64,000 nt of DNA from Hoplostethus atlanticus (Eukaryota; Chordata; Actinopteri; Trachichthyiformes; Trachichthyidae): NCBI GenBank assembly GCA_034670405.1, contig JAXDDX010000148.1, positions 112,501-176,500 of the forward strand, written 5' to 3'. Position 1 is the stretch's first letter. Every line of letters starts with the position of its first letter. Shown one piece after another: positions 7,443 to 63,655 of this stretch. A program made the position numbers and the translations under genes. The notes beneath the pieces were generated by a model, which searched no databases, was not told the origin of the DNA, and was given only the letters and a program-made list of their open reading frames with translations.

Positions 7443-14030
<6,588 letters not shown>

Positions 14031-27099: not shown

Positions 27100-27740
27100 T
27101 ATGAGCAAATTTCACCAAACTGTTTACAGTTTTTCTCAGTCGCTTTGGTACATTTCTCAGATCAGAATTTAAATTCTCAAAACTCCTTGTTCAACCTCCA
27201 CATCATCTAGTCACTTGTTCAACCTCCACATCATCTAGTCACTTGTTCACATCATCAAAGCAGCTTCTCTTCTCTTTTCTTTTCTTTTGAACAAATTACA
27301 AATGCTTTGGCTCATTCATGCAAATGATTATGTAAAACTGTCTGCTGTTTCCTACATTATCAATAGTTTCTGTCATGTTGATCAAAATGTATTATATTGG
27401 TTCTCTGTTGAGTAGTCTCACCCCCCAGAACATCTAGGCACTAGTTCATTGCATAAGTCATTACATGCAAAATGGTTGAACCAGGTGTCATAATCTGTCA
27501 AGAATATTTTATCTACATTTCTATTAGACGTTTTTTGTAAATGTGTCCTGAATTGATGAATCTTGACTTTCACTCCAGCTTTTCTCAGTTGATTTGGCTC
27601 AATTCTCCAATGACAGTTGAAGTCGTCAAAACAAAATGTGTCATTTTGTTTCTTGTGCACAACAGAAAGAGCATTTGAACACAATGTCTTGAGTAAAGGA
27701 CAAATTGGCTTCCTACCAAAGCAACTACTGATCATGTTTA
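27100..27740. repeat. Unclassified repeat-like AT-rich block
   Basis: Similar phrases recur inside it: CAGTTTTTCTCAGTCGCTTTGG near 27126 against CAGCTTTTCTCAGTTGATTTGG near 27577, and CACATCATCTAGTCACTTGTTCA tandemly near 27197-27250. This suggests a transposon-derived piece. No coding domain is readable. Confidence 0.35.
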
Positions 27741-28065
27741 CACCCTACACACCCTAATTAACCATCACGTACACCAAAAAAACAAGGGGAAGATTTTTGC
27801 ATGTTTTATTGATTTAAAAAAAGCTTTTGATTCTATTTGGCAAGAGGGATTATATTATAAAATTCTCCAAAGCGGTATAGGGGATAAAGTTTATGACATA
27901 ATAAAGTCAATGTATATCAGTAATACCTGTGGAGTAAAAATTGGCAATAAAAGTACAGAATTCTTCACTCAAAGGAAAGGAGTGTTTCAGGGAAACAGCT
28001 TGTCACCAACTCTCTTTAATATCTACATAAATTAATTAGCAGTACAGTTGGAACAAGCTGCAACC
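27741..28065 (+). mobile_element. LINE reverse-transcriptase fragment, 5' part
   Basis: One plus-strand frame reads FIDLKKAFDSIW, then KGVFQGNSLSPTLFNIYIN followed by a stop where a GA-type codon would be expected. These are reverse-transcriptase motifs 2a to B. It runs directly into the 54-bp array and continues after it near 30140. The copy is inactive. Confidence 0.75.
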
Positions 28066-28389
28066 CCTGGACTTACCGTACACAATAAGGAGGTCAAACT
28101 CCTGCTGTACGCAGACGACCCTGGACTTACCCTACACAATAAGGAGGTCAAACTCCTGCTGTACGCAGACGACCCTGGGCTAACCGTACACAATAAGGAG
28201 GTCAAACTCCTGCTGTACGCAGACGACCCTGGACTTACTCTACACAATAAGGAGGTCAAACTCCTGCTGTACGCAGACGACCCTGGGCTAACCGTACACA
28301 ATAAGGAGGTCAAACTCCTGCTGTACGCAGACGACCCTGGGCTAACCGTACACAATAAGGAGGTCAAACTCCTGCTGTACCCAGATGAC
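28066..28389 (+). repeat. 54-bp tandem array built from a reverse-transcriptase YADD box (left half)
   Basis: Six units start at 28066, 28120, 28174, 28228, 28282 and 28336. In the LINE frame each unit reads PGLTLHNKEVKLLLYADD, so the catalytic YADD motif is repeated in phase. The seventh unit is cut at 28390-28396 by the hAT insertion and resumes at 29793. Confidence 0.95.
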
Positions 28390-28396
28390 CCTAGAC

Positions 28397-29791
28397 CCGC
28401 GCTACTCAACACGCGGCCCGCGGGCCGCATGCGGCCCGAGGTTAATATTATTGCGGCCCTTGGTTGAATTTTTATTGTCATAGCAACTACCAATAAAAAT
28501 ATAATATTCTCATTTCAATGAACACAAACCATTTCTAAACTAAATTCTTAATGACCACAAGATGGCGATCGTGCATACTGTGCTTATTTAGCAATCGTGG
28601 GATCAACAAAGAAGATAAACCAACACATGATCAGCGACAAAAACGCTCGGCGCTGGCACTGCCATTCATTTCCTATTTGGCAAGCGTTGCCATCGATTCT
28701 AGCGTCGCTGCCGCCGTCGGTATTGTGCACCTGGGCACAGACGCTGGGAGAGTCCCTGGGGCTGCGCTCAAAGTTCAACTATATTCAACTTTGACATTCG
28801 CGACGCTGATCTCTGCGACTCGCAACCAATCACAGCACAGTTTGATATCATAACCGCGAAATTAAAAAAAAACAATGGAGGAGAAACTTGTTTTATGTGT
28901 GTCGGAGCATCCCGAGTTATACAACATGACGCTTAAATCATACCACGATCTGACTAAAAAGTCTGGCATGGAATGATGTCGGTTTACAGACGGGACTACC
29001 AGGTTGGTTGACAGCTTAGTACAGGTTTGTATATGCAGCCAGTCTATATTCACTTCTATGGCTGTGCTAGTATGATCATTGGCGGTGTGGTTAGCTACGG
29101 CTGATGCGGGCTGTTGTCCGAAATTTAACTCCACTCTATTCTTTCCTGAATGCTGTCATTTTAAAAACTCGACAGTGTGAAAGTAATGAATGTAATGTAA
29201 TTCTCCTGACGCTGATCATGTGAAGGGGTTGCGCTCAACCTGGTGTTGACGCCGACGCTTTGCATGGATCATGTGAACGCCCCAACTGTGCAGGAAGTCT
29301 AGCCTAGCCTACTCTCAAGTCATGGCAAAACCGGCAAAACGTAACATTTCTGATGAACACAGGGTATTTCAAAAAACATGGGAGGAAGAATTCACTTTTG
29401 TTGAGGTAAATAACAAACCAATGTGCCTTCTTTGCCAGAGAACAATAGCAGGACCAAAACGGGCAAACGTTCACATCACCATGATATCTATCACGGTGAC
29501 TTGGAATTACATATCCATCCGGGGGTAATTTGATATACTCAGACCTGATTTCAATTTAATATGCCTATATTTATTTTATTAAACATTCTTGTGATTTATT
29601 GCAACAGCAATCTACACTTTTACATTTAGTGAATAAAGCCTACTTATTGTCATTTAATCATTTGATATCCATGTGGCTTGAAATAACACTACAAAATAGT
29701 TTTATATGACCAAAAAATTTGTGTTGAGGCCCTTTGACACAGCTGTATCTTGCTGTGTGGCCCTTGAGCTATGTAAAGTTGAGTAGCCCTG
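28397..29791 (+). mobile_element. hAT transposon, non-autonomous, with perfect 8-bp target duplication and BED-finger remnant
   Basis: CCCTAGAC flanks it on both sides (28389-28396 and 29792-29799), an 8-bp target duplication typical of hAT. The ends are near-inverted (CCGCGCTACTCAAC at the left, complement of CAGGGCTACTCAAC at the right). On the plus strand at 29322-29470 a frame reads MAKPAKRNISDEH, EEEFTFVEVNNKPMCLLC and IAGPKRANV, matching the N-terminal BED-type zinc-finger region of hAT transposases. The frame then degenerates and the catalytic domain is absent. GCGGCCCGCGGGCC near the left end is a typical subterminal motif. At 1395 bp it is an internally deleted copy. Confidence 0.85.
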
Positions 29792-29792
29792 C

Positions 29793-30138
29793 CCTAGACT
29801 AACCCTACACAATAAGGAGGTCAAACTGCTGCTGTACGCAGACGACCCTAGACTAACCCTACACAATAAGGAGGTCAAACTCCTGCTGTACCCAGATGAC
29901 CCTAGACTAACCCTACACAATAAGGAGGTCAAACTCCTGCTGTACGCAGACGACCCTGGACTAACCCTACACAATAAGGAGGTAAAACTCCTGCTGTACG
30001 CAGACGACCCTGGATTAACCCTACACAATAAGGAGGTCAAACTCCTGCTGTATGGAGACAACCCTGGGCTAACCCTACACAATAAGGAGGTCAAACTCCT
30101 GCTGTATGCAGATGACCCTGGACTAACCCTACACAATA
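29793..30138 (+). repeat. 54-bp YADD array, right half
   Basis: Units start at 29793, 29847, 29901, 29955, 30009 and 30063, with a partial unit at 30117. Together with the left half this gives twelve full units once the hAT copy is removed. Later units diverge slightly (for example TATGGAGACAAC in place of TACGCAGACGAC). Confidence 0.95.
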
Positions 30139-30545
30139 CACAACATCTAGACCTCCTGGAGGAGTACTGTCAGAACTGGGCCCTGACAGTCAACTTTCAA
30201 AAATGTAAAATAATGATCTTCCAAAAGAAGCCCAGATCTCAGGAAACCAAGTATGCATTCACTCTAGGAATCACCGCCCTAGAGCACACCCTGTTCTATG
30301 ACTACCTGGGGCTCAAAATCAGTGCCTCAGGTAACTTTGGTCTGGCAGTGAACACACTAGAAGAAAAATCCTGTTTATGCAATCAGGAGAAAATTCCACA
30401 AAATTCACATACCAATCAGAATCAGCCCTTTATGGAAGTGAAGTATGGGGTCCACTCAGTCAGCATGACTACACTAGATGGGACAAGCATCCCATAGAGG
30501 CCCTGCATGCAGAATTCTATAGAACCATTTTAAACATTGATTGCT
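30139..30545 (+). mobile_element. LINE reverse-transcriptase fragment, 3' part
   Basis: The same LINE resumes: LLEEYCQNWALTVNFQKCK, YDYLGLKISASGNFGLAVN and, after a frame shift, ALYGSEVWGPLSQHDYTRW. These are the thumb and connection regions of the reverse transcriptase. It ends near 30545 ahead of a (CA)n run. Confidence 0.75.
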
Positions 30546-32480: not shown

Positions 32481-33241
32481 ATGGAGTCACTGCTCATCCT
32501 GTTGATCCTGACTGGTGAGTCTGTTTTTCATTCCTAATGTTCATATTTAGTGTTGCAGGATGAACCTTTCAACACATGTAAATATACAACTTATATATTT
32601 AGTATCTGGACAGAAACAGGATGTTTTAACACTTTAACTTAAAGGTTAAAGTGCAGCTTGTCATCTTTAATTTAAAGGCAGTTTCAAAATCCCTTTGAGT
32701 GAAACCCGACTGACAGAACGGATCAAACCATCAGGGGATGTGGATCTGAACCAGAAACTGTTTGGGTTCCACTCTGATGGTTTGCTGCTGTAAGAGACGA
32801 GGCCTTTATCTTCTGACAGCCGTTCATCCAACCAGCAACACGAGAGGTGTTGGTCTGGACGGCTCGCGGACCAGAGGTCATGTTGTTGTCGTTGTGTTGT
32901 GTTGTGCAGGTCTGGGGTCGGACCGGCGCGTCGCTACGCTGCCAACCAACACTTTAAAGGTGAAAGTTGGAGATGCTGCCACCCTGCAATGCCCCCTGCT
33001 GGCCAGATCCAGCATGGCCACGGTGAGCTGGTACCGGCAGACGGCGGGGAAGGGTCCTCTTCTGGTCCTCAGCTACCGTCTGACCAACACCTCCGCCGTG
33101 ACCTACGGCCCCGGCGTCCATCCCGACAAATTCACCACCGGGGTCGACGGGTCGCTGCTGATTCATGGCTCCGAGGAAAGCGACTCTGCGGTGTATTACT
33201 GTGGACTCTCCAAATACCAGAACCAAATGCCACGCCACTGA
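32481..33241 (+). CDS. Secreted single V-set immunoglobulin domain (VpreB-like)
   Basis: Two exons, 32481-32514 (signal peptide MESLLILLILT, donor ACTG|GTGAGT) and 32910-33241, join in phase 1 and encode 121 residues. The second exon is one complete V domain: first cysteine at 39 (ATLQC), tryptophan at 52 (VSWYRQ), second cysteine at 109 (DSAVYYC). The cysteines are 70 residues apart, normal for a V-set. After YYC the frame continues GLSKYQNQMPRH and stops. There is no J segment, no membrane helix, no donor at the V end and no recombination signal, so it is a stand-alone germline V gene. VpreB proteins have this form (human VPREB3 is 123 residues). WYRQ is also common in T-cell receptor V domains, so a TCR-V-derived origin is possible. 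Function is not proven. Confidence 0.75.
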
Positions 33242-33428
33242 GACCACCGCCATCACGTCACGTGGAAGGAGACTGCCGCCATCGTCATTATTATCATGAT
33301 CAATATTATTATTGTTGTTATTATTATTATTATTGTCATCATCATCATCATCATCATCATTATATCAGCTGACTGGGACAGAGGATTTTACAGCTTCAAT
33401 ACTTTGAAATGATATAAATATATAGGGA

Positions 33429-33434
33429 AATAAA
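33429..33434 (+). terminator. Polyadenylation signal of the V-only gene
   Basis: AATAAA about 190 bp after the stop codon. It supports the view that transcription ends here and that the V exon is terminal and not spliced to the J-like exon downstream. Confidence 0.5.
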
Positions 33435-34213
33435 ACGTTTGTACTTGTAAAGCTTAGGAAGTTTGTGATATGAAAATGGTCAAATTAAAGATTTTCAATA
33501 TCAACACAGAATATGGTCTATGAGTTTCAATCCAAAAGGACCAGGATCAGCTGGGGTCAGAGCTAACATGCTAGCAGACAGAAGGTCACAGGTTCGATTC
33601 CCTCTGGACAGACCGTCAGCTATATGTCTGAAGGACATTCTGTGAATGAGCAGAGCCAGGGCATCTCTGAGGGATTCTGGGAAATAAACTGTCTATCTGT
33701 TGTTTTTTGTGATGATTACATTCTCGTTCATATTGTGTGAGCAAAGTTTTTACCCTCACATAAAACTTTAACTGACATCCCAGCGATGGATTTTAGGTGC
33801 CACAACTTCTAAATATCTAATTTTGGAACAAAACTTTTATTCTCTGAGCTTCCAGAATTCTCTTTACCAGTCAGAGAATAACAAGACCAGGCGCCGCAGA
33901 AGAGAGTACACCTGGTACAGGGGAAACACAAACCAACCGTCCTTTCCTGTTGCTTTTCCTGTTTTTCTTGCCTCCACCAACCGACCGGCAGATCCACCAA
34001 CCGTCGTCTGAGTTTGGATCCCTGCAGAGAAACCGTCGCCTCTCCTCTGGGAGCCGGTGACGTTCTACTAGATGGTTTTCATATTTCTGTTGTGCAGAAA
34101 CGTCCTGCTGTCACTTTGTCATTTCAACTGCAGAACTACAGAAAATCACTGGGTTGAGAGTGGATGCATACTTTTGTTTACCACTGCTATTAGATACACT
34201 GCTCAGCGTTGGG

Positions 34214-34226
34214 AAAGAGGAAGTAG
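34214..34226 (+). promoter_or_regulatory. PU.1/Ets-type site before the J-C Ig gene
   Basis: AAAGAGGAAGTAG matches the extended PU.1 site (purine-rich with GAGGAAGT core) and lies about 25-40 bp upstream of the ATG at 34252. PU.1 or SpiB sites at this position are common in TATA-less myeloid and B-cell promoters. Activity is inferred. Confidence 0.4.
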
Positions 34227-34251
34227 GGAGGAGCAGCTTCCTGTCAGCGGC

Positions 34252-36265
34252 ATGGAAGCAGGACTGGCCTTCATCGTCCTGCTGCTGGGGTGAGATTCAC
34301 TATCTACTGTCTAATGTATTGATAATGTATTGATATGTATAGTTACTGTCTATATAGATGACATGTATAGTTACTGACTATATAGATGACATGTATAGTT
34401 ACTGACTATATAGATGATGTATAGTTACTGACTATATAGATGATGTATAGTTACTGACTATATAGATGATGTATAGTTACTGTCTATATAGATGATGTAT
34501 AGTTACTGACTATATAGATGACATGTATAGTTACTGACTATATAGATGATGTATAGTTACTGACTATATAGATGACATGTATAGTTACTGTCTATATAGA
34601 TGATGTATAGTTACTGACTATATAGATGACATGTATAGTTACTGACTATATAGATGATGTATAGTTACTGACTATATAGATGACATGTATAGTTACTGTC
34701 TATATAGATGATGTATAGTTACTGACTATATAGATGATGTATAGTTACTGACTATATAGATGACATGTATAGTTACTGACTATAGATGACATGTATAGTT
34801 ACTGACTATATAGATGATGTATAGTTACTGACTATATAGATGATGTATAGTTACTGACTATATAGATGACATGTATAGTTACTGACTATATAGATGATGT
34901 ATAGTTACTGACTATATAGATGACATGTATAGTTACTGACTATAGATGACATGTATAGTTACTGACTATATAGATGATATATAGTTACTGACTATATAGA
35001 TGACATGTATAGTTACTGACTATATGTTGGTCAGTTGTCCTGCCCTGTGTCAGTAGTACTGTCCTGTCCTCAGGTCCGTCCTCGTCCGTCAGTCTGTGAT
35101 GGACATGGTCTTCAGCGGTGGAACATTGCTGCTTGTCGACGGTGTGGAATCAGTTTCTATTTTCAATATCATGTTCTTTACTGTGTTTTATTCCAATAAA
35201 TCTATAAAGACCAGAACTGAGAAATTAGAAGCTCTAAATACAACAGACTGAACTTCAATGAGAACACAGAAAATAAAGATTTATAACTTTCTGCATAACT
35301 GCAGTAAAATTGCTCAATTGCACTGCAAAGTGTATGACTGATTAATTATTGCTTCTTAGTGGACAACCTAATTATTGTGTTCATCAAACTATTGATCAAC
35401 TATTGTCTTTATTGGTTTCATTGTTTTTTTGTAATGTGTGTTTTATTCCCTGGACTGCAAAGAATGTTGAGTTAATGGAGTCGACAGAAATGACAAAAAC
35501 CATGAGAACAATTCCTGCTTTCATGTAAAGCGACAGATCTTCTCACATCAGATGCAGAGAGACTCCACTGAGGTCACAAGTAGAATAAAATTCACTTCCT
35601 AGATCACCAACATTACAAGCAGCCAATACTAAGGAGGTCAGAGGTCACAGTGTCCTTTTCCCCATGACTAGAGAATGATCATGTAAAAGTGCTGGTAGAA
35701 GAAATAGAATAAGAGCTGAGGAGAAACACAGAAAGTTTTATTTTCGTTCCATCTTTTCTTATGTTGGTGACTTGTGTGGTTTGGTTGAAATACTTCAACT
35801 GAAATGTTACTTTTTTTCAAGATTGTGTTTGTATTCTGGTCATGGACCAAATTCACTTCTGTTTGATCCAGATCTTCTCACATGAGATACTTTCTTCATC
35901 CCATTTTATTTTTGTGACTTTCGTCTGCAGGTTCGATTCCCTCCGGTCCGTCAGTGCAGATCTTCTCCTCCTTCCCGGCCAGTCAGGATCCAGGAGCCGC
36001 CCGCATCCTGGTGTGCATCCTCAGCGGTCTAAACACAACCCTCCTGGACGTCGTCTGGTGGGTCAATGATGCGGTGGTGACGCCAGTGGAGGCAGATGTG
36101 TGGACGGTGCCGGACCTCGGCGGGGCCTACAGCACCATCTCTGTCTGGGAGGTCTCTGCAGAGGACTGGAGCTCCTCCACTACCTACTGGTGTGGAACCG
36201 TCCAGGAGGGGAAAGTTTACAGGCAGAAGTCAGACGCCTCTCTCTGCGGGGGGGCTGGCTTGTGA
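34252..36265 (+). CDS. Signal peptide + J-like segment + C1 immunoglobulin domain (lambda-5/IGLL1-like)
   Basis: Three exons join in frame to give 146 residues: 34252-34289 (signal MEAGLAFIVLLL, donor GG|GTGAGA), 35074-35141 (acceptor CTGTCCTCAG) and 35931-36265 (acceptor CGTCTGCAG). Exon 2 encodes a short lead then MVFSGGTLLLVD, which matches a light-chain or TCR J segment except that F-G-x-G-T is F-S-G-G-T. Exon 3 is a C1-type domain: PSVQIFSSFP start, cysteines at 64 (ARILVC) and 123 (TTYWC), tryptophans at 78/79, sequon N70, and a cysteine at 141 (ASLC) where light chains bond to heavy chains. No membrane helix follows. Unique/signal, J and C exons in that order is how IGLL1 (lambda-5) is built, though the unique part here is very short. 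The exon 2 donor (G|GTGTGG) is weak. A relic light-chain locus is the main alternative. Confidence 0.65.
34333..35023. repeat. 26/28-bp minisatellite between the signal and J-like exons
   Basis: About 25 units of TATAGTTACTGACTATATAG plus GATG or GATGACATG alternate through the whole intron up to 50 bp before the J-like exon. Any recombination signal or V segment that once lay here has been replaced or never existed. Confidence 0.95.
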
Positions 36266-36515
36266 CTTAAAGATTTCTGGTTTAATTCCCCAGACCAGCT
36301 AGGAAAATGTGGGTGGGGAATGTGAATGAGAACCTTTCATTGAGATGCCCTTGAGCAAGGCACTGAACCACCAACTGCTCCCAGAGGCCACCAGTAGAAG
36401 ACTGTGGTTGTACTGGTCCCAGTTTGAATGTGTGTAACTGTGTGAATATGAAGGAGTGATGCTGGAAAAAAAGCACAGACGTTCAGGTGACTTTCCCTGG
36501 AGAAATAAAGGTTAA
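36262..36515 (+). mobile_element. tRNA-derived SINE abutting the stop codon of the J-C Ig gene
   Basis: It contains the common fish SINE phrase GATGCCCTTGAGCAAGGCAC followed by AACTGCTCCCAGAGGCC, a B-box-like TGGTTTAATTCCCC near the start, and an A-rich end with AATAAAGG. It begins at or just before the TGA at 36263-36265, so the last few codons of the Ig gene may be SINE-derived. Confidence 0.7.
36504..36509 (+). terminator. Polyadenylation signal for the J-C Ig gene, inside the SINE tail
   Basis: AATAAA about 240 bp downstream of the stop codon, in the 3' end of the SINE. It is the first clear signal after the gene. Confidence 0.4.
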
Positions 36516-39162
36516 AAATGTGAATAGTAATAACACAAAGTCTAAAATGATGAATGTTTCTTGCTCAGGTAAAACATGTGCTGGGAAATCAAACACACAA
36601 TAATGTCATGTTGAGGACATTTAGGGACAGCCAGACAGTGTACTGCCCCGTGTTGGCCTCATTACTCATTCTAAAGGTAATATTATTACTTTACTCATTA
36701 CTCACTGGCAGCACTACTTCGTTACCATACTTGTTCTACTACTTTCCGTTAGTTTCCTCTGCTGTGAGCGATCACAAAACCAAACAGCATCGATGTCAGA
36801 TGTTTCTGTGGTTCTTTTACTGGAGAAAATCAAAATAGTGAGATTACTTCCATCCAGAGAAAGTAACTTTTCTACCATTTCCCCTCTCAGCAGCTCAGTG
36901 TGAGAGGAAGACCACTAGTTATGATGAAAATGAATCAGAAGATGGAGGAGGATATAATGTTAGTTTTTAGATTCAACTTCAATCTGATATTAAGTTGGAT
37001 GGGTAACTGTAATAATATTACTAAGATTGAAATAGTAAATCATCACACTACTTGTTAGTGGGAAAAGTAATAATATTATGGTAACACATTACTAAGTAAC
37101 TCATTACCACCAAACCAACTTGGGGAGATAGAGTTTAACTGTGAGATACAGCAGAGTATCATCGGCATAGTGTCAAACTGAACACCAAACAGCCTACATG
37201 GTCTACTGCACAGGAACAGATTGACTGAAGACACCCAGAATGCATTTGATAGATGGTGACATGCAGGAGGAGGCGGAGTTCAACATCAAACCTGATCAAA
37301 ATTCATATTCAACAGCTTTGGAAACAGTTTTGAACTGATATAGAAAACCAAAAGCCATTAATGATTTATATCCTTTACTGCACATGCCATGTAAAATCCT
37401 GCTTCAGAGAGAATGAGTAAAATTAAGCTGTGTTCATTTTAAGAGTCATTTTAGACTTCACAGCAACAGCCTGGTTGTGTTTTAAATCCTTTTGAATCAG
37501 ATCAGTGTTAAATAGTTCTGCAGGATACATACAGTCTCTTCCAGTTGAATGTCATTATTCTGATATGATGAAACATAAATAAAATAATAGAACTACACAT
37601 GCAACAATAAATCCCCCTTCTTAAATGTGACTGATACACTGTCAGCATGTACTCTATAATATGTTGTCCTCAAAATTAAAGAAGGTACAAGTTTACTCAA
37701 CCAAACACAAAACTAACACCACTTACAGTTGGGTAGCCCCACCTACCCAAACGCCCCTAATATATTCCTCATAGACATGATCAATATAAGCAAAATATTC
37801 ATATTTTTACACAATTGTATAGATGTAAATCAAATATATACATGCTTTAACATGACAGCAAGTTATCCAATGCATACTATTTGGCAAGAAGTTACTGTGA
37901 AAATGCCTGTGAGCAGGTTAATGATGCGTACACCTGTAACAGATAAAGTTGATAGAAGACATGCAAAACTGACATTTCACCAATTATTCAAGTTCCTAAG
38001 AGGAAAGCCCTTTGGCGACGGATGTGTTCCTCTACTCTACTTTACACCAAACCCATGACTCCTGTTTAACTGAGAAATATCATTTCATCAAGTGGCCTCG
38101 GGTTTTTCTGCTCAGCTCTTCAATATTTTCTTTAGAGAATGTTCTACAACATTTTTGGAAGCCCCTGTACAAAAAGAGGTAGAAAGTGTGGTTTCAGATC
38201 AGATGAAAGGGTTTGATTTGTTTTTCTAAGAAAGGTCAATGGTCAATTTGGGAATTGGGTGTGACCACAGAATGTGTTTCTGGTCATTTCTACATAAAGA
38301 GGACTGGTCAACGGGAACGGTGAACAACTGATTCTGTAATCTATCTCAAATAAAACAATATGTACAGTGCAAACATCAGATCATCATTGCTGTAATTGTA
38401 AAGTAAACGTTGTACAACACACCGTACCAGAAGCTCACAAATACAACATATACTCACCTGAAGGCTAATCTATGCAAGGACAGGGTCTTATCTAGTCATA
38501 TAGTTGCATAATGAAGTTAAATAGTAGAAAGGTGCAAAGGATAAAAAACTCTGAAAGCAGACCGTCTGTTCAAGTTCCCTGTAAACCAAACAGCATCCAT
38601 CATGCAGGGCTGGCCTCACCTCGAGATTTAACGTCTCATCCTATCTTATCTTAAAAGCAACGTTAGAATACAATCAGGAGGAAGGTCGTCCATGGCTGCG
38701 TTGGTTCTGAGTCTCTGAGGAAAGAAGAGGCCGAAGTCTGTTTTATCCCGGGATGAAACCTCTCCAGACCTTCTATCACCTCCAGTCTCACCAGCAGTAT
38801 CTAGTATCCACCATGTTAACCTGTAGGAGCTTCATGGTTGTGCGTGTCACCAAAGACCTTTAGAAGATATCCTACTCAACAGTAAAAGACCTTCACCACG
38901 TGCAGCCACGCCATAATGGCTGAGCTGGTACACAACTGAAACGACTCATCACAAAATGGTAAATCTTAGCTCTGGATGTTCGCAGTACTTTCAACTTGGT
39001 GTAATTCTGTCCAAATAAATCTTTTCAGTGGAGGATATCTGCAACAGAAGGCCACACCAACACGGTGAGGTCAGACTATGGTTCACCATGACTTTGTCCT
39101 GGAAATAGAAATAGAAATAGAAATAGAGTGGAACCTCTCTGCTTCCTCCTCTCAGAAGACAA
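36516..39162. other. Intergenic DNA and probable camk4 3' UTR
   Basis: The right-hand part (about 38.5-39.16 kb) should be camk4 3' UTR on the minus strand; I could not place a clean polyadenylation signal. Pieces at 36660-36740 and 36990-37110 (GTAATAATATTACT, TAACTCATTACC) resemble the ends of the hAT copy at 44846-45632. A frame at 37729-38058 (109 codons) has no recognisable domain and no splice context. I do not call it a gene. Confidence 0.4.

Positions 39163-55800
<16,638 letters not shown>

Positions 55801-62243: not shown

Positions 62244-63655
<1,412 letters not shown>

Follow-up and report, generated by a model that had tools for sequence, protein, structure and literature searches.

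An adjacent V-only and J-C gene pair with surrogate-light-chain-like architecture in the teleost Hoplostethus atlanticus

Do two neighbouring immunoglobulin-domain genes of a fish encode a surrogate light chain? The genes, here called A and B, lie in a 64,000-nucleotide stretch of Hoplostethus atlanticus DNA from contig JAXDDX010000148.1 (contig 148), which as a whole is referred to as the window. An earlier note on this DNA proposed that they could form a fish surrogate light chain, and took it that none had been established in fish. That view is out of date: the available text of PMC9614664 already proposes an adjacent zebrafish pair as VpreB- and lambda-5-like. Since that pair and medaka sid1 have been reported, the window pair looks like a further case of a kind already described, whose function is unproven; what is new is a further teleost example of the putative surrogate. 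The two genes are composed of the following features.

32481..32514, forward strand: gene A exon 1, signal peptide (MESLLILLILTG) with a hydrophobic core, phase-1 donor G/GTGAGT
32910..33241, forward strand: gene A exon 2, one V-set domain with Cys39, Trp52 and Cys109, ending in YYCGLSKYQNQMPRH and a stop codon, with no J
33429..33434, forward strand: AATAAA, possible gene A polyadenylation signal
34252..34289, forward strand: gene B exon 1, signal peptide (MEAGLAFIVLLLG), phase-2 donor
34328..35025, forward strand: tandem repeat array of 26/54/80 bp, occupying most of gene B intron 1
35074..35141, forward strand: gene B exon 2, end of the leader and J-like strand (VFSGGTLLLVDG), J core at 35108-35140 by inspection, no upstream heptamer-nonamer
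35931..36265, forward strand: gene B exon 3, C1-set, light-chain-type constant domain with the stop codon in the same exon
36504..36509, forward strand: AATAAA, possible gene B polyadenylation signal

Gene A (32481-33241) has an intact frame of 121 amino acids, interrupted by one GT-AG intron in phase 1. Its V-set domain is recognised by Pfam above the curated cut-off (E 1.3e-12), and the stop codon follows 12 residues beyond the second cysteine, Cys109, which agrees with the earlier description of a single V domain behind a signal peptide, halting shortly past YYC. From this stop codon to the ATG of gene B there are 1,010 bp on the same strand, as the estimate of about 1 kb had it. Gene B (34252-36265) likewise has an intact frame, encoding 146 amino acids with cysteines at positions 64, 123 and 141, and two GT-AG introns in phases 2 and then 1. 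Its germline J strand reads VFSGGTLLLV and is preceded by a leader splice, which is not expected in ordinary light-chain J segments. Ahead of the J core there are 24 residues in total, leader counted, and a long unique region upstream of J is absent. The C1-set domain again exceeds the curated Pfam cut-off (E 3.7e-7), and in alignment Cys141 (36245-36247) matches the terminal cysteine found in lambda chains. The proposed order of signal peptide, J-like segment and C1 domain with a light-chain-style cysteine stands. The claim that all exon phases fit is right in that the frame is kept, though the leader introns of the two genes differ: that of gene A is in phase 1, and the one between leader and J in gene B is in phase 2. 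In neither protein did we see a transmembrane segment.

Ordinary light-chain loci carry recombination signals, and we scored heptamer-nonamer candidates out of 16 matches. The best V-side candidate reaches 9/16, a score equalled or exceeded in 608 of 1000 random 211-nt segments of the window, and the best J-side candidate reaches 11/16, a score matched or bettered in 102 of 1000 random 131-nt segments. As a positive control, the same scoring, with spacers of 12 and 23 only, was applied to 11 light-chain loci or pieces from this genome; 8 of them together contain 25 sites of at least 14/16, 24 of which are perfect. Neither the window nor 70 kb of its flanks has a site of this quality. The two genes therefore carry no recombination signal, as previously claimed, and do not qualify as a rearranging immunoglobulin light-chain locus. 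Their architecture, a V without J beside a J and C without V, no recombination signals and a light-chain-type C domain, is surrogate-light-chain-like.

The J and C parts of gene B align with the lambda light chain 8r4n_L in a single block (E 2.5e-11) that includes both J and the terminal cysteine. Alignment z-scores for these parts are 16.4 to 22.1 with lambda-type sequences, 9.1 with kappa, 7.2 with B2M, 7.1 with TCR-beta and 0.5 with pre-T-alpha (a provisional PTCRA sequence). Within the genome we scored 56 rows at 54 places, among 130 C1-set matches listed in a search limited to 150 candidates; many of the unscored matches have scores and frames in common with scored copies. The best are light-chain exons on contig 108 (31/85 identical, z 13.4) and contig 4 (30/102, z 12.8), with the best MHC-type exon at z 6.8 and the best IgH-type exon at z 6.7 (classes named by inspection). 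Other light-chain classes of this genome are weaker: C22/C783 exons have z-scores of 5.8 to 9.5, and C147-type exons, at 1.2 to 3.8, score under some MHC exons. By these sequence comparisons, the C domain of gene B is nearest to immunoglobulin light chains. A tree of C domains with 15 rows from this genome gave no resolution (the end branch of the window C is 3.05), and single-sequence structure predictions for the V and C exons had mean pLDDT values of 41.2 and 41.6, too low to use. A search of the genome for a second copy of gene B scored 11 candidates, none of which matches at E <= 1e-3, and the 130 listed matches include no further C1-set match on contig 148. Judged by their sequences, genes A and B are not recent copies.

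For the V domain of gene A, the nearest V genes are found in this genome's C22/C783 light-chain loci (40% over 87 aa, E 2.8e-12). Three such V rows score 45.8, 42.9 and 25.0 bits, compared with 34.3 for human kappa, 28.8 for TRAV12, 24.4 for VPREB3 (provisional sequence) and 19.5 for VPREB1; human kappa and TRAV12 thus outscore the lowest of the three. In a tree whose own rows were 8 V genes of this genome, hand-chosen from light-chain-locus matches, gene A joins the C22/C783 V genes at 93/100, under the program's mark for firm support, and on a long branch. Against human references alone gene A is ambiguous between Ig V and TCR V, since its z-score with TRAV12-2 (17.5) is similar to those with kappa V (17.9 and 15.5); VPREB3, in the same provisional sequence, follows with 30/84 identical residues and z 15.1, and VPREB1 with z 11.8. 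By bits, the closest kin of gene A is an ordinary light-chain V class and not VpreB. An alternative raised in the earlier note was convergent origin from a degraded light-chain or TCR locus. A light-chain origin fits the V comparison better than shared descent with mammalian VpreB does, and a TCR origin of the V is not favoured in this comparison, in which the TCR reference is human TRAV12.

How far, then, does the pair resemble known systems? With mammalian VpreB1/2 and lambda-5 (IGLL1) it shares a J-less V beside a J and C, separate leaders and the lack of recombination signals, and gene B, like lambda-5, has a light-chain-type C domain with a terminal cysteine. However, gene B has almost nothing of the lambda-5 unique region, the tail after the cysteine is 12 residues in gene A but 30 in VpreB1 (2h32_A), and in its V domain gene A resembles fish light-chain V more closely than it does VpreB1. 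In mammals a strand of lambda-5 has been shown to fold VpreB, and the unique region of lambda-5 matters for antigen interaction, according to the available part of PMC12859133. The settings differ as well: the mammalian genes have a 22q11-type neighbourhood (VPREB/IGL), which the recognised genes around the window pair do not match, whereas the pair is accompanied by ELAVL1-, CAMK4- and FAM174-like genes, with WDR18 about 68 kb upstream. Both genes stand outside IgL loci, as adjacent V-only and C-type genes in the same orientation. The locus also holds repeats and one retroelement fragment. Simple pattern searches for an octamer (30-37 kb) and for an EBF-type site (29-37 kb) gave no match, which we take as evidence neither way.

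The closer parallel is in zebrafish. According to the available text of PMC9614664 (2022), sid1 (ENSDARG00000095540) and si:ch211-1a19.2 are adjacent, in the same orientation, and putative orthologues of VpreB and IGLL1. In the same text, sid1 matches mainly TCR chains by BLAST and is placed in the VpreB3 branch, as a VpreB3 ortholog of similar length; si:ch211-1a19.2 matches mammalian Ig heavy or light chains and is without the GPRC motif of IGLL1; and a pre-B stage is argued against with the cited finding that zebrafish larvae express mu and kappa together. The two genes share a gene module of zebrafish rag1/2+ B cells, where two light-chain genes were undetected (PMC9365674). Medaka sid1, whose locus is at chr 4:24323750-24324064, is restricted to rag1-high B clusters and adjoins si:ch211-1a19.3 (PMC11759298), so that sid1 expression is linked to rag/dntt-positive B cells in both species (PMC9365674, PMC11759298). 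The window pair is like the zebrafish pair in adjacency, orientation and Ig-superfamily domains, a likeness drawn from architecture and literature, and both have a TCR side, sid1 in its mainly TCR BLAST matches and gene A in its Ig/TCR ambiguity with human references. We recognised no certain counterpart of the medaka neighbour si:ch211-1a19.3 in the window. The position of WDR18 is only suggestive of orthology, because the synteny legend in PMC9614664, as available, includes WRD18 with no species given and does not tie it to zebrafish. Sturgeons have an IgL sigma locus that is said to encode no typical light chain; PMC5985310 suggests that in the sterlet sigma IgL might take the part of VpreB and lambda-5 through convergent evolution, and unlike in the window no split V and J-C gene pair is described in the available text.

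With moderate confidence, we consider the window genes to be the teleost counterpart of zebrafish sid1 and si:ch211-1a19.2, most likely encoding a two-chain, non-rearranging surrogate of a light chain. Orthology with the zebrafish pair is the most likely relationship on the basis of architecture and literature, and the published expression of both zebrafish genes and of medaka sid1 favours a B-lineage reading. The gene A protein would be a V domain without its last strand (G), a gap that the J strand opening the gene B protein could fill. The C domain of gene B would then dock on the first constant domain of a mu heavy chain, with the terminal cysteine bonded to the heavy chain, and such a complex might let early B cells test or stabilise a new heavy chain before light-chain rearrangement. 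Its origin was probably in ray-finned fish, from light-chain material and separate from that of VpreB and lambda-5 in mammals. The earlier reading as a fish surrogate light chain is supported in part, by the architecture; the closest kin of gene A is not VpreB, the recognised neighbours are not those of the mammalian genes, and the function is putative. More tentatively, the pair may belong to a true teleost pre-B-cell receptor, with a surrogate built from fish light-chain segments (a C22/C783-class V and a light-chain-type J-C) independently of mammals, kept across teleosts as a split-V pair, and needing no lambda-5 unique region. That a further species has an intact split pair, free of recombination signals and with a germline J strand suited to completing the V domain, makes the split-light-chain reading more concrete and directly testable; if this reading is true, surrogate light chains had two or more separate origins.

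Gene A could instead work in the endoplasmic reticulum as a VpreB3-like chaperone for newly made mu chains and form no light chain with gene B, which would act separately. Gene A and VpreB3 are indeed alike in having a single V domain, a short tail and similar length (121 aa, and 123 aa in human VpreB3), and VPREB3 exceeds VPREB1 in z-score, as given above. VpreB3 is not known to have a J-C partner gene, and this explanation leaves the adjoining J-C gene, with its intact J strand, without a role. Furthermore, VPREB3 scores below the two best light-chain V rows of this genome, though close to the third, and none of the tetrapod VpreB3 neighbours C22orf15, SMARCB1, DERL3 and MIF was recognised in the partly annotated window. 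Even with zebrafish sid1 assigned to the VpreB3 branch, we regard a chaperone of this kind as unlikely.

Less probable still, both genes could encode secreted innate immunoglobulin-domain proteins, unconnected to the testing of heavy chains. The name sid is short for secreted immunoglobulin domain, and in zebrafish fin sid4 is upregulated after rhabdovirus infection, in the available part of PMC2997011; the lack of visible transmembrane segments would suit such proteins. However, sid4 is a different gene, the B-cell association described above is that of sid1, and it is not obvious what a secreted domain acting as a monomer would do with a J strand and a terminal cysteine.

We think it very improbable that the pair is a component of a pre-T-cell receptor in the thymus, that is, a pre-T-alpha-like J-C chain with a V partner. 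The C domain of gene B has a WWVN in common with TCR-beta C in the alignment, the V of gene A scores with TRAV12-2 about as it does with kappa V, and an ORF downstream of gene B (36554-36838) resembles by eye a TCR-type transmembrane segment with a lysine. Against this, PTCRA and TCR-beta C score far below lambda-type sequences, gene B closes directly after the C domain with a light-chain-type terminal cysteine and a stop codon, and the transmembrane-like ORF has no Pfam match and is overlapped by inverted repeats. Comparably improbable is a decayed light-chain locus, a functionless leftover of V and J-C parts after loss of recombination signals, which the light-chain type of both parts and the repeats and retroelement fragment might suggest, but which fits poorly with two intact frames, GT-AG borders at all three introns, a J-C gene with its own leader and leader-J splice, and expression of a similarly built pair in zebrafish and of sid1 in medaka.

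The transmembrane-like ORF was also considered as a missing exon of gene B and rejected, for its lack of a Pfam match and its inverted repeats and because on inspection the C exon has its own stop codon and no good donor was seen in it; the inverted repeats over the ORF we read as a transposon.

The exons of the V-only, VpreB-like gene (gene A) and of the J-C, lambda-5-like gene (gene B) are as follows:

32481-32514, plus strand, gene A exon 1, leader, phase 1
32910-33241, plus strand, gene A exon 2, V-set domain (Pfam E 1.3e-12)
34252-34289, plus strand, gene B leader exon
35074-35141, plus strand, gene B J-like exon
35931-36265, plus strand, gene B C1 exon (C1-set E 3.7e-7)

Gene A encodes 121 residues, and its stop lies 12 residues past the second cysteine, in line with an earlier note that had the V domain end just after YYC. 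Gene B begins 1,010 bp further on and encodes 146 residues; its proposed make-up of a leader, a J-like segment and a C1 domain is borne out by the exons and the C1-set match. All three introns of the two genes are GT-AG, those of gene B being in phase 2 (leader-J) and phase 1 (J-C), and both genes have an AATAAA 3′ of the stop. The gene structure and the light-chain nature are, in our judgement, very nearly certain. The first intron of gene B is mostly a tandem repeat of about 700 bp based on a 26-bp unit (34328-35025). Downstream, an ORF at 36554-36838 resembles a TCR-type transmembrane segment; it is overlapped by inverted repeats, which may belong to a small transposon, and we put the resemblance down to chance.

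A rearranging J segment is ordinarily preceded by a recombination signal, and a splice acceptor like the one before the gene B J is not expected there; light-chain J segments of this genome have such a signal in front, as expected of an ordinary J. With heptamer-nonamer scoring out of 16 and spacers of 12 and 23, the best candidate beside the gene A V domain reached 9/16, a score attained by 608 of 1000 random window segments, and that beside the gene B J reached 11/16, attained by 102 of 1000. Neither the window nor 70 kb of flanking sequence has a site of at least 14/16. As a positive control, the same scoring was applied to 11 light-chain loci or pieces from this genome, and 8 of these gave 25 sites of at least 14 in total, including 24 perfect ones; their spacers are 12 bases long at V and 23 bases long at J. 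Of the three without sites, two were 801-base C-exon pieces and the third was a 10-kb neighbour stretch. The method can therefore detect such signals, and their absence at both genes, already remarked upon in the earlier note, does not stem from a lack of sensitivity. The clustered light-chain loci with perfect signals are:

L034 and L037, contig 147
L043 and L064, contig 4
L060-L062, contigs 783 and 22

V and J run in opposite directions on contig 147 and on contig 4, and in the same direction on contigs 22 and 783. A passage of PMC3570791 reports co-orientation in the L2 and lambda clusters of teleosts, and the contig 22/783 class is likely sigma/L2.

Among the best 60 of 1661 PDB sequences matched by gene B, most are named as light chain or Fab, few name kappa or lambda, and the third-ranked is an IgA heavy chain. 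The alignment of gene B with a horse lambda chain starts at VFSGGT, spans the C domain and ends at Cys141, opposite the last cysteine of the horse chain, in line with the suggested light-chain-style terminal cysteine. Against a panel of 11 reference proteins, gene B gave z-scores of 22.1 (horse lambda), 18.7 (IGLC2), 16.4 (IGLL1), 9.1 (kappa), 7.2 (B2M), 7.1 (TCR-beta), 3.6 (TCR-gamma), 0.7 (IgM CH1 and TCR-alpha), 0.5 (pre-T-alpha) and 0 (TCR-delta). In its own genome (56 rows scored, at 54 of the 130 C1-set places listed; exon classes named by inspection), the C1 domain is closest to light-chain genes on contig 108 (31/85 identical, z 13.4) and contig 4 (30/102, z 12.8), followed by those on contigs 22/783 (24/91; z-scores from 9.5 to 5.8). 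MHC-type exons reach 6.8 at most, and IgH-type exons 6.7. As the large contig 147-type class scores just 1.2 to 3.8, the domain is kin to some light-chain classes, not all. A tree of 23 C domains leaves it unplaced, and a genome search with 11 scored candidates gave no second match for gene B at E ≤ 1e-3.

Against human references, the V domain of gene A is ambiguous by sequence, with z-scores of 17.9 (IGKV3-20), 17.5 (TRAV12-2), 15.5 (IGKV1-39), 15.1 (VPREB3), 14.3 (TRDV2) and 11.8 (VPREB1). This agrees with zebrafish sid1, whose matches in eutherians are mostly TCR chains according to a section of PMC9614664. Comparison with V genes of the same genome is more telling on origin than the human references: among the light-chain loci compared, those on contigs 22 and 783 have the best-matching V genes, at 40% across 87 residues (E 2.8e-12). 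Two of the three rows of this class top the 20-row comparison (45.8 and 42.9 bits); the third (25.0) lies narrowly over VPREB3 (24.4) and below human kappa (34.3 and 30.8), TRAV12 (28.8) and the contig 147 and contig 4 V rows (28.7 to 25.3). The tree of the 20 V rows groups gene A, on a long branch, with all three at 93/100, below the program's mark for firm support.

The J-encoded strand is absent from gene A and present in gene B. By inspection, gene A has the Tyr and Gln of WYRQ, the Pro of GKGP and the YYC tyrosines, which we take to be residues of the ordinary VL-VH interface. The two products could thus form one split light chain, which would pair with mu via the C domain and Cys141. As there is no unique region, the mammalian mode of ligand engagement may be absent, and ligand-driven signalling would then be less likely than heavy-chain stabilisation and quality control. 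We give about even chances that the pair works as a surrogate light chain, and infer every step that concerns the fish proteins.

Neither VpreB nor lambda-5 was known in fish according to statements in reviews of 2013 and 2016 (PMC3570791, PMC5192425), and the earlier note likewise held that a fish surrogate light chain had not been established. The view that nothing of the kind is known in fish is out of date: portions of PMC9614664 (2022) report sid1 and si:ch211-1a19.2 as adjacent and co-oriented in zebrafish, taking sid1 as a VpreB3 ortholog and arguing against a pre-B phenotype. PMC9365674 (2022) groups the two zebrafish genes in a single module of rag1/2+ B cells, where two light-chain genes went undetected. 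Medaka sid1 was observed solely in rag1-high B clusters in a passage of PMC11759298, and another gene, igic1s1, served as a predicted IGLL1 homologue in PMC6365377. Given the zebrafish pair and medaka sid1, this kind of pair was already known; the present one adds another example and sets out its gene structure, and our search of open-licence papers recognised none on the pair in this species. That it is the counterpart of sid1/si:ch211-1a19.2 we consider quite probable.

The recognised neighbours are:

7446-7802, minus strand, ELAVL1
11004-11228, RRM exon, probably part of ELAVL1
25807 (25.8 kb) down to about 21400, minus strand, membrane coiled-coil gene, apparently multi-exon
40573-40842, candidate further CAMK4 exon, probably the next one (kinase match under cut-off)
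41579-41815, minus strand, CAMK4
62247-62516, plus strand, FAM174-like gene (under Pfam cut-off)
about 68 kb upstream of gene A, WDR18

Judged from these genes, with the remaining window and flanks skimmed as ORF lists, the neighbourhood is not IGL-type. In the membrane coiled-coil gene, a short N-terminal segment and a single transmembrane helix are combined with coiled-coil-like exons, a layout resembling that of BST2/tetherin. This gene is a possible counterpart of si:ch211-1a19.3. The latter adjoins sid1 in zebrafish and medaka (a passage of PMC11759298) and, in one zebrafish data set, is listed together with interferon-response genes as a hub of the network. A reverse transcriptase fragment of a retroelement lies at 27697-28035 (Pfam RVT_1, E 5.8e-15), and the ORF list has two arrays of one ~18-codon unit (LTLHNKEVKLLLYADDPG and variants) at 28036-28467 and 29787-30497, which seem to have arisen by amplification of part of a retroelement's coding sequence.
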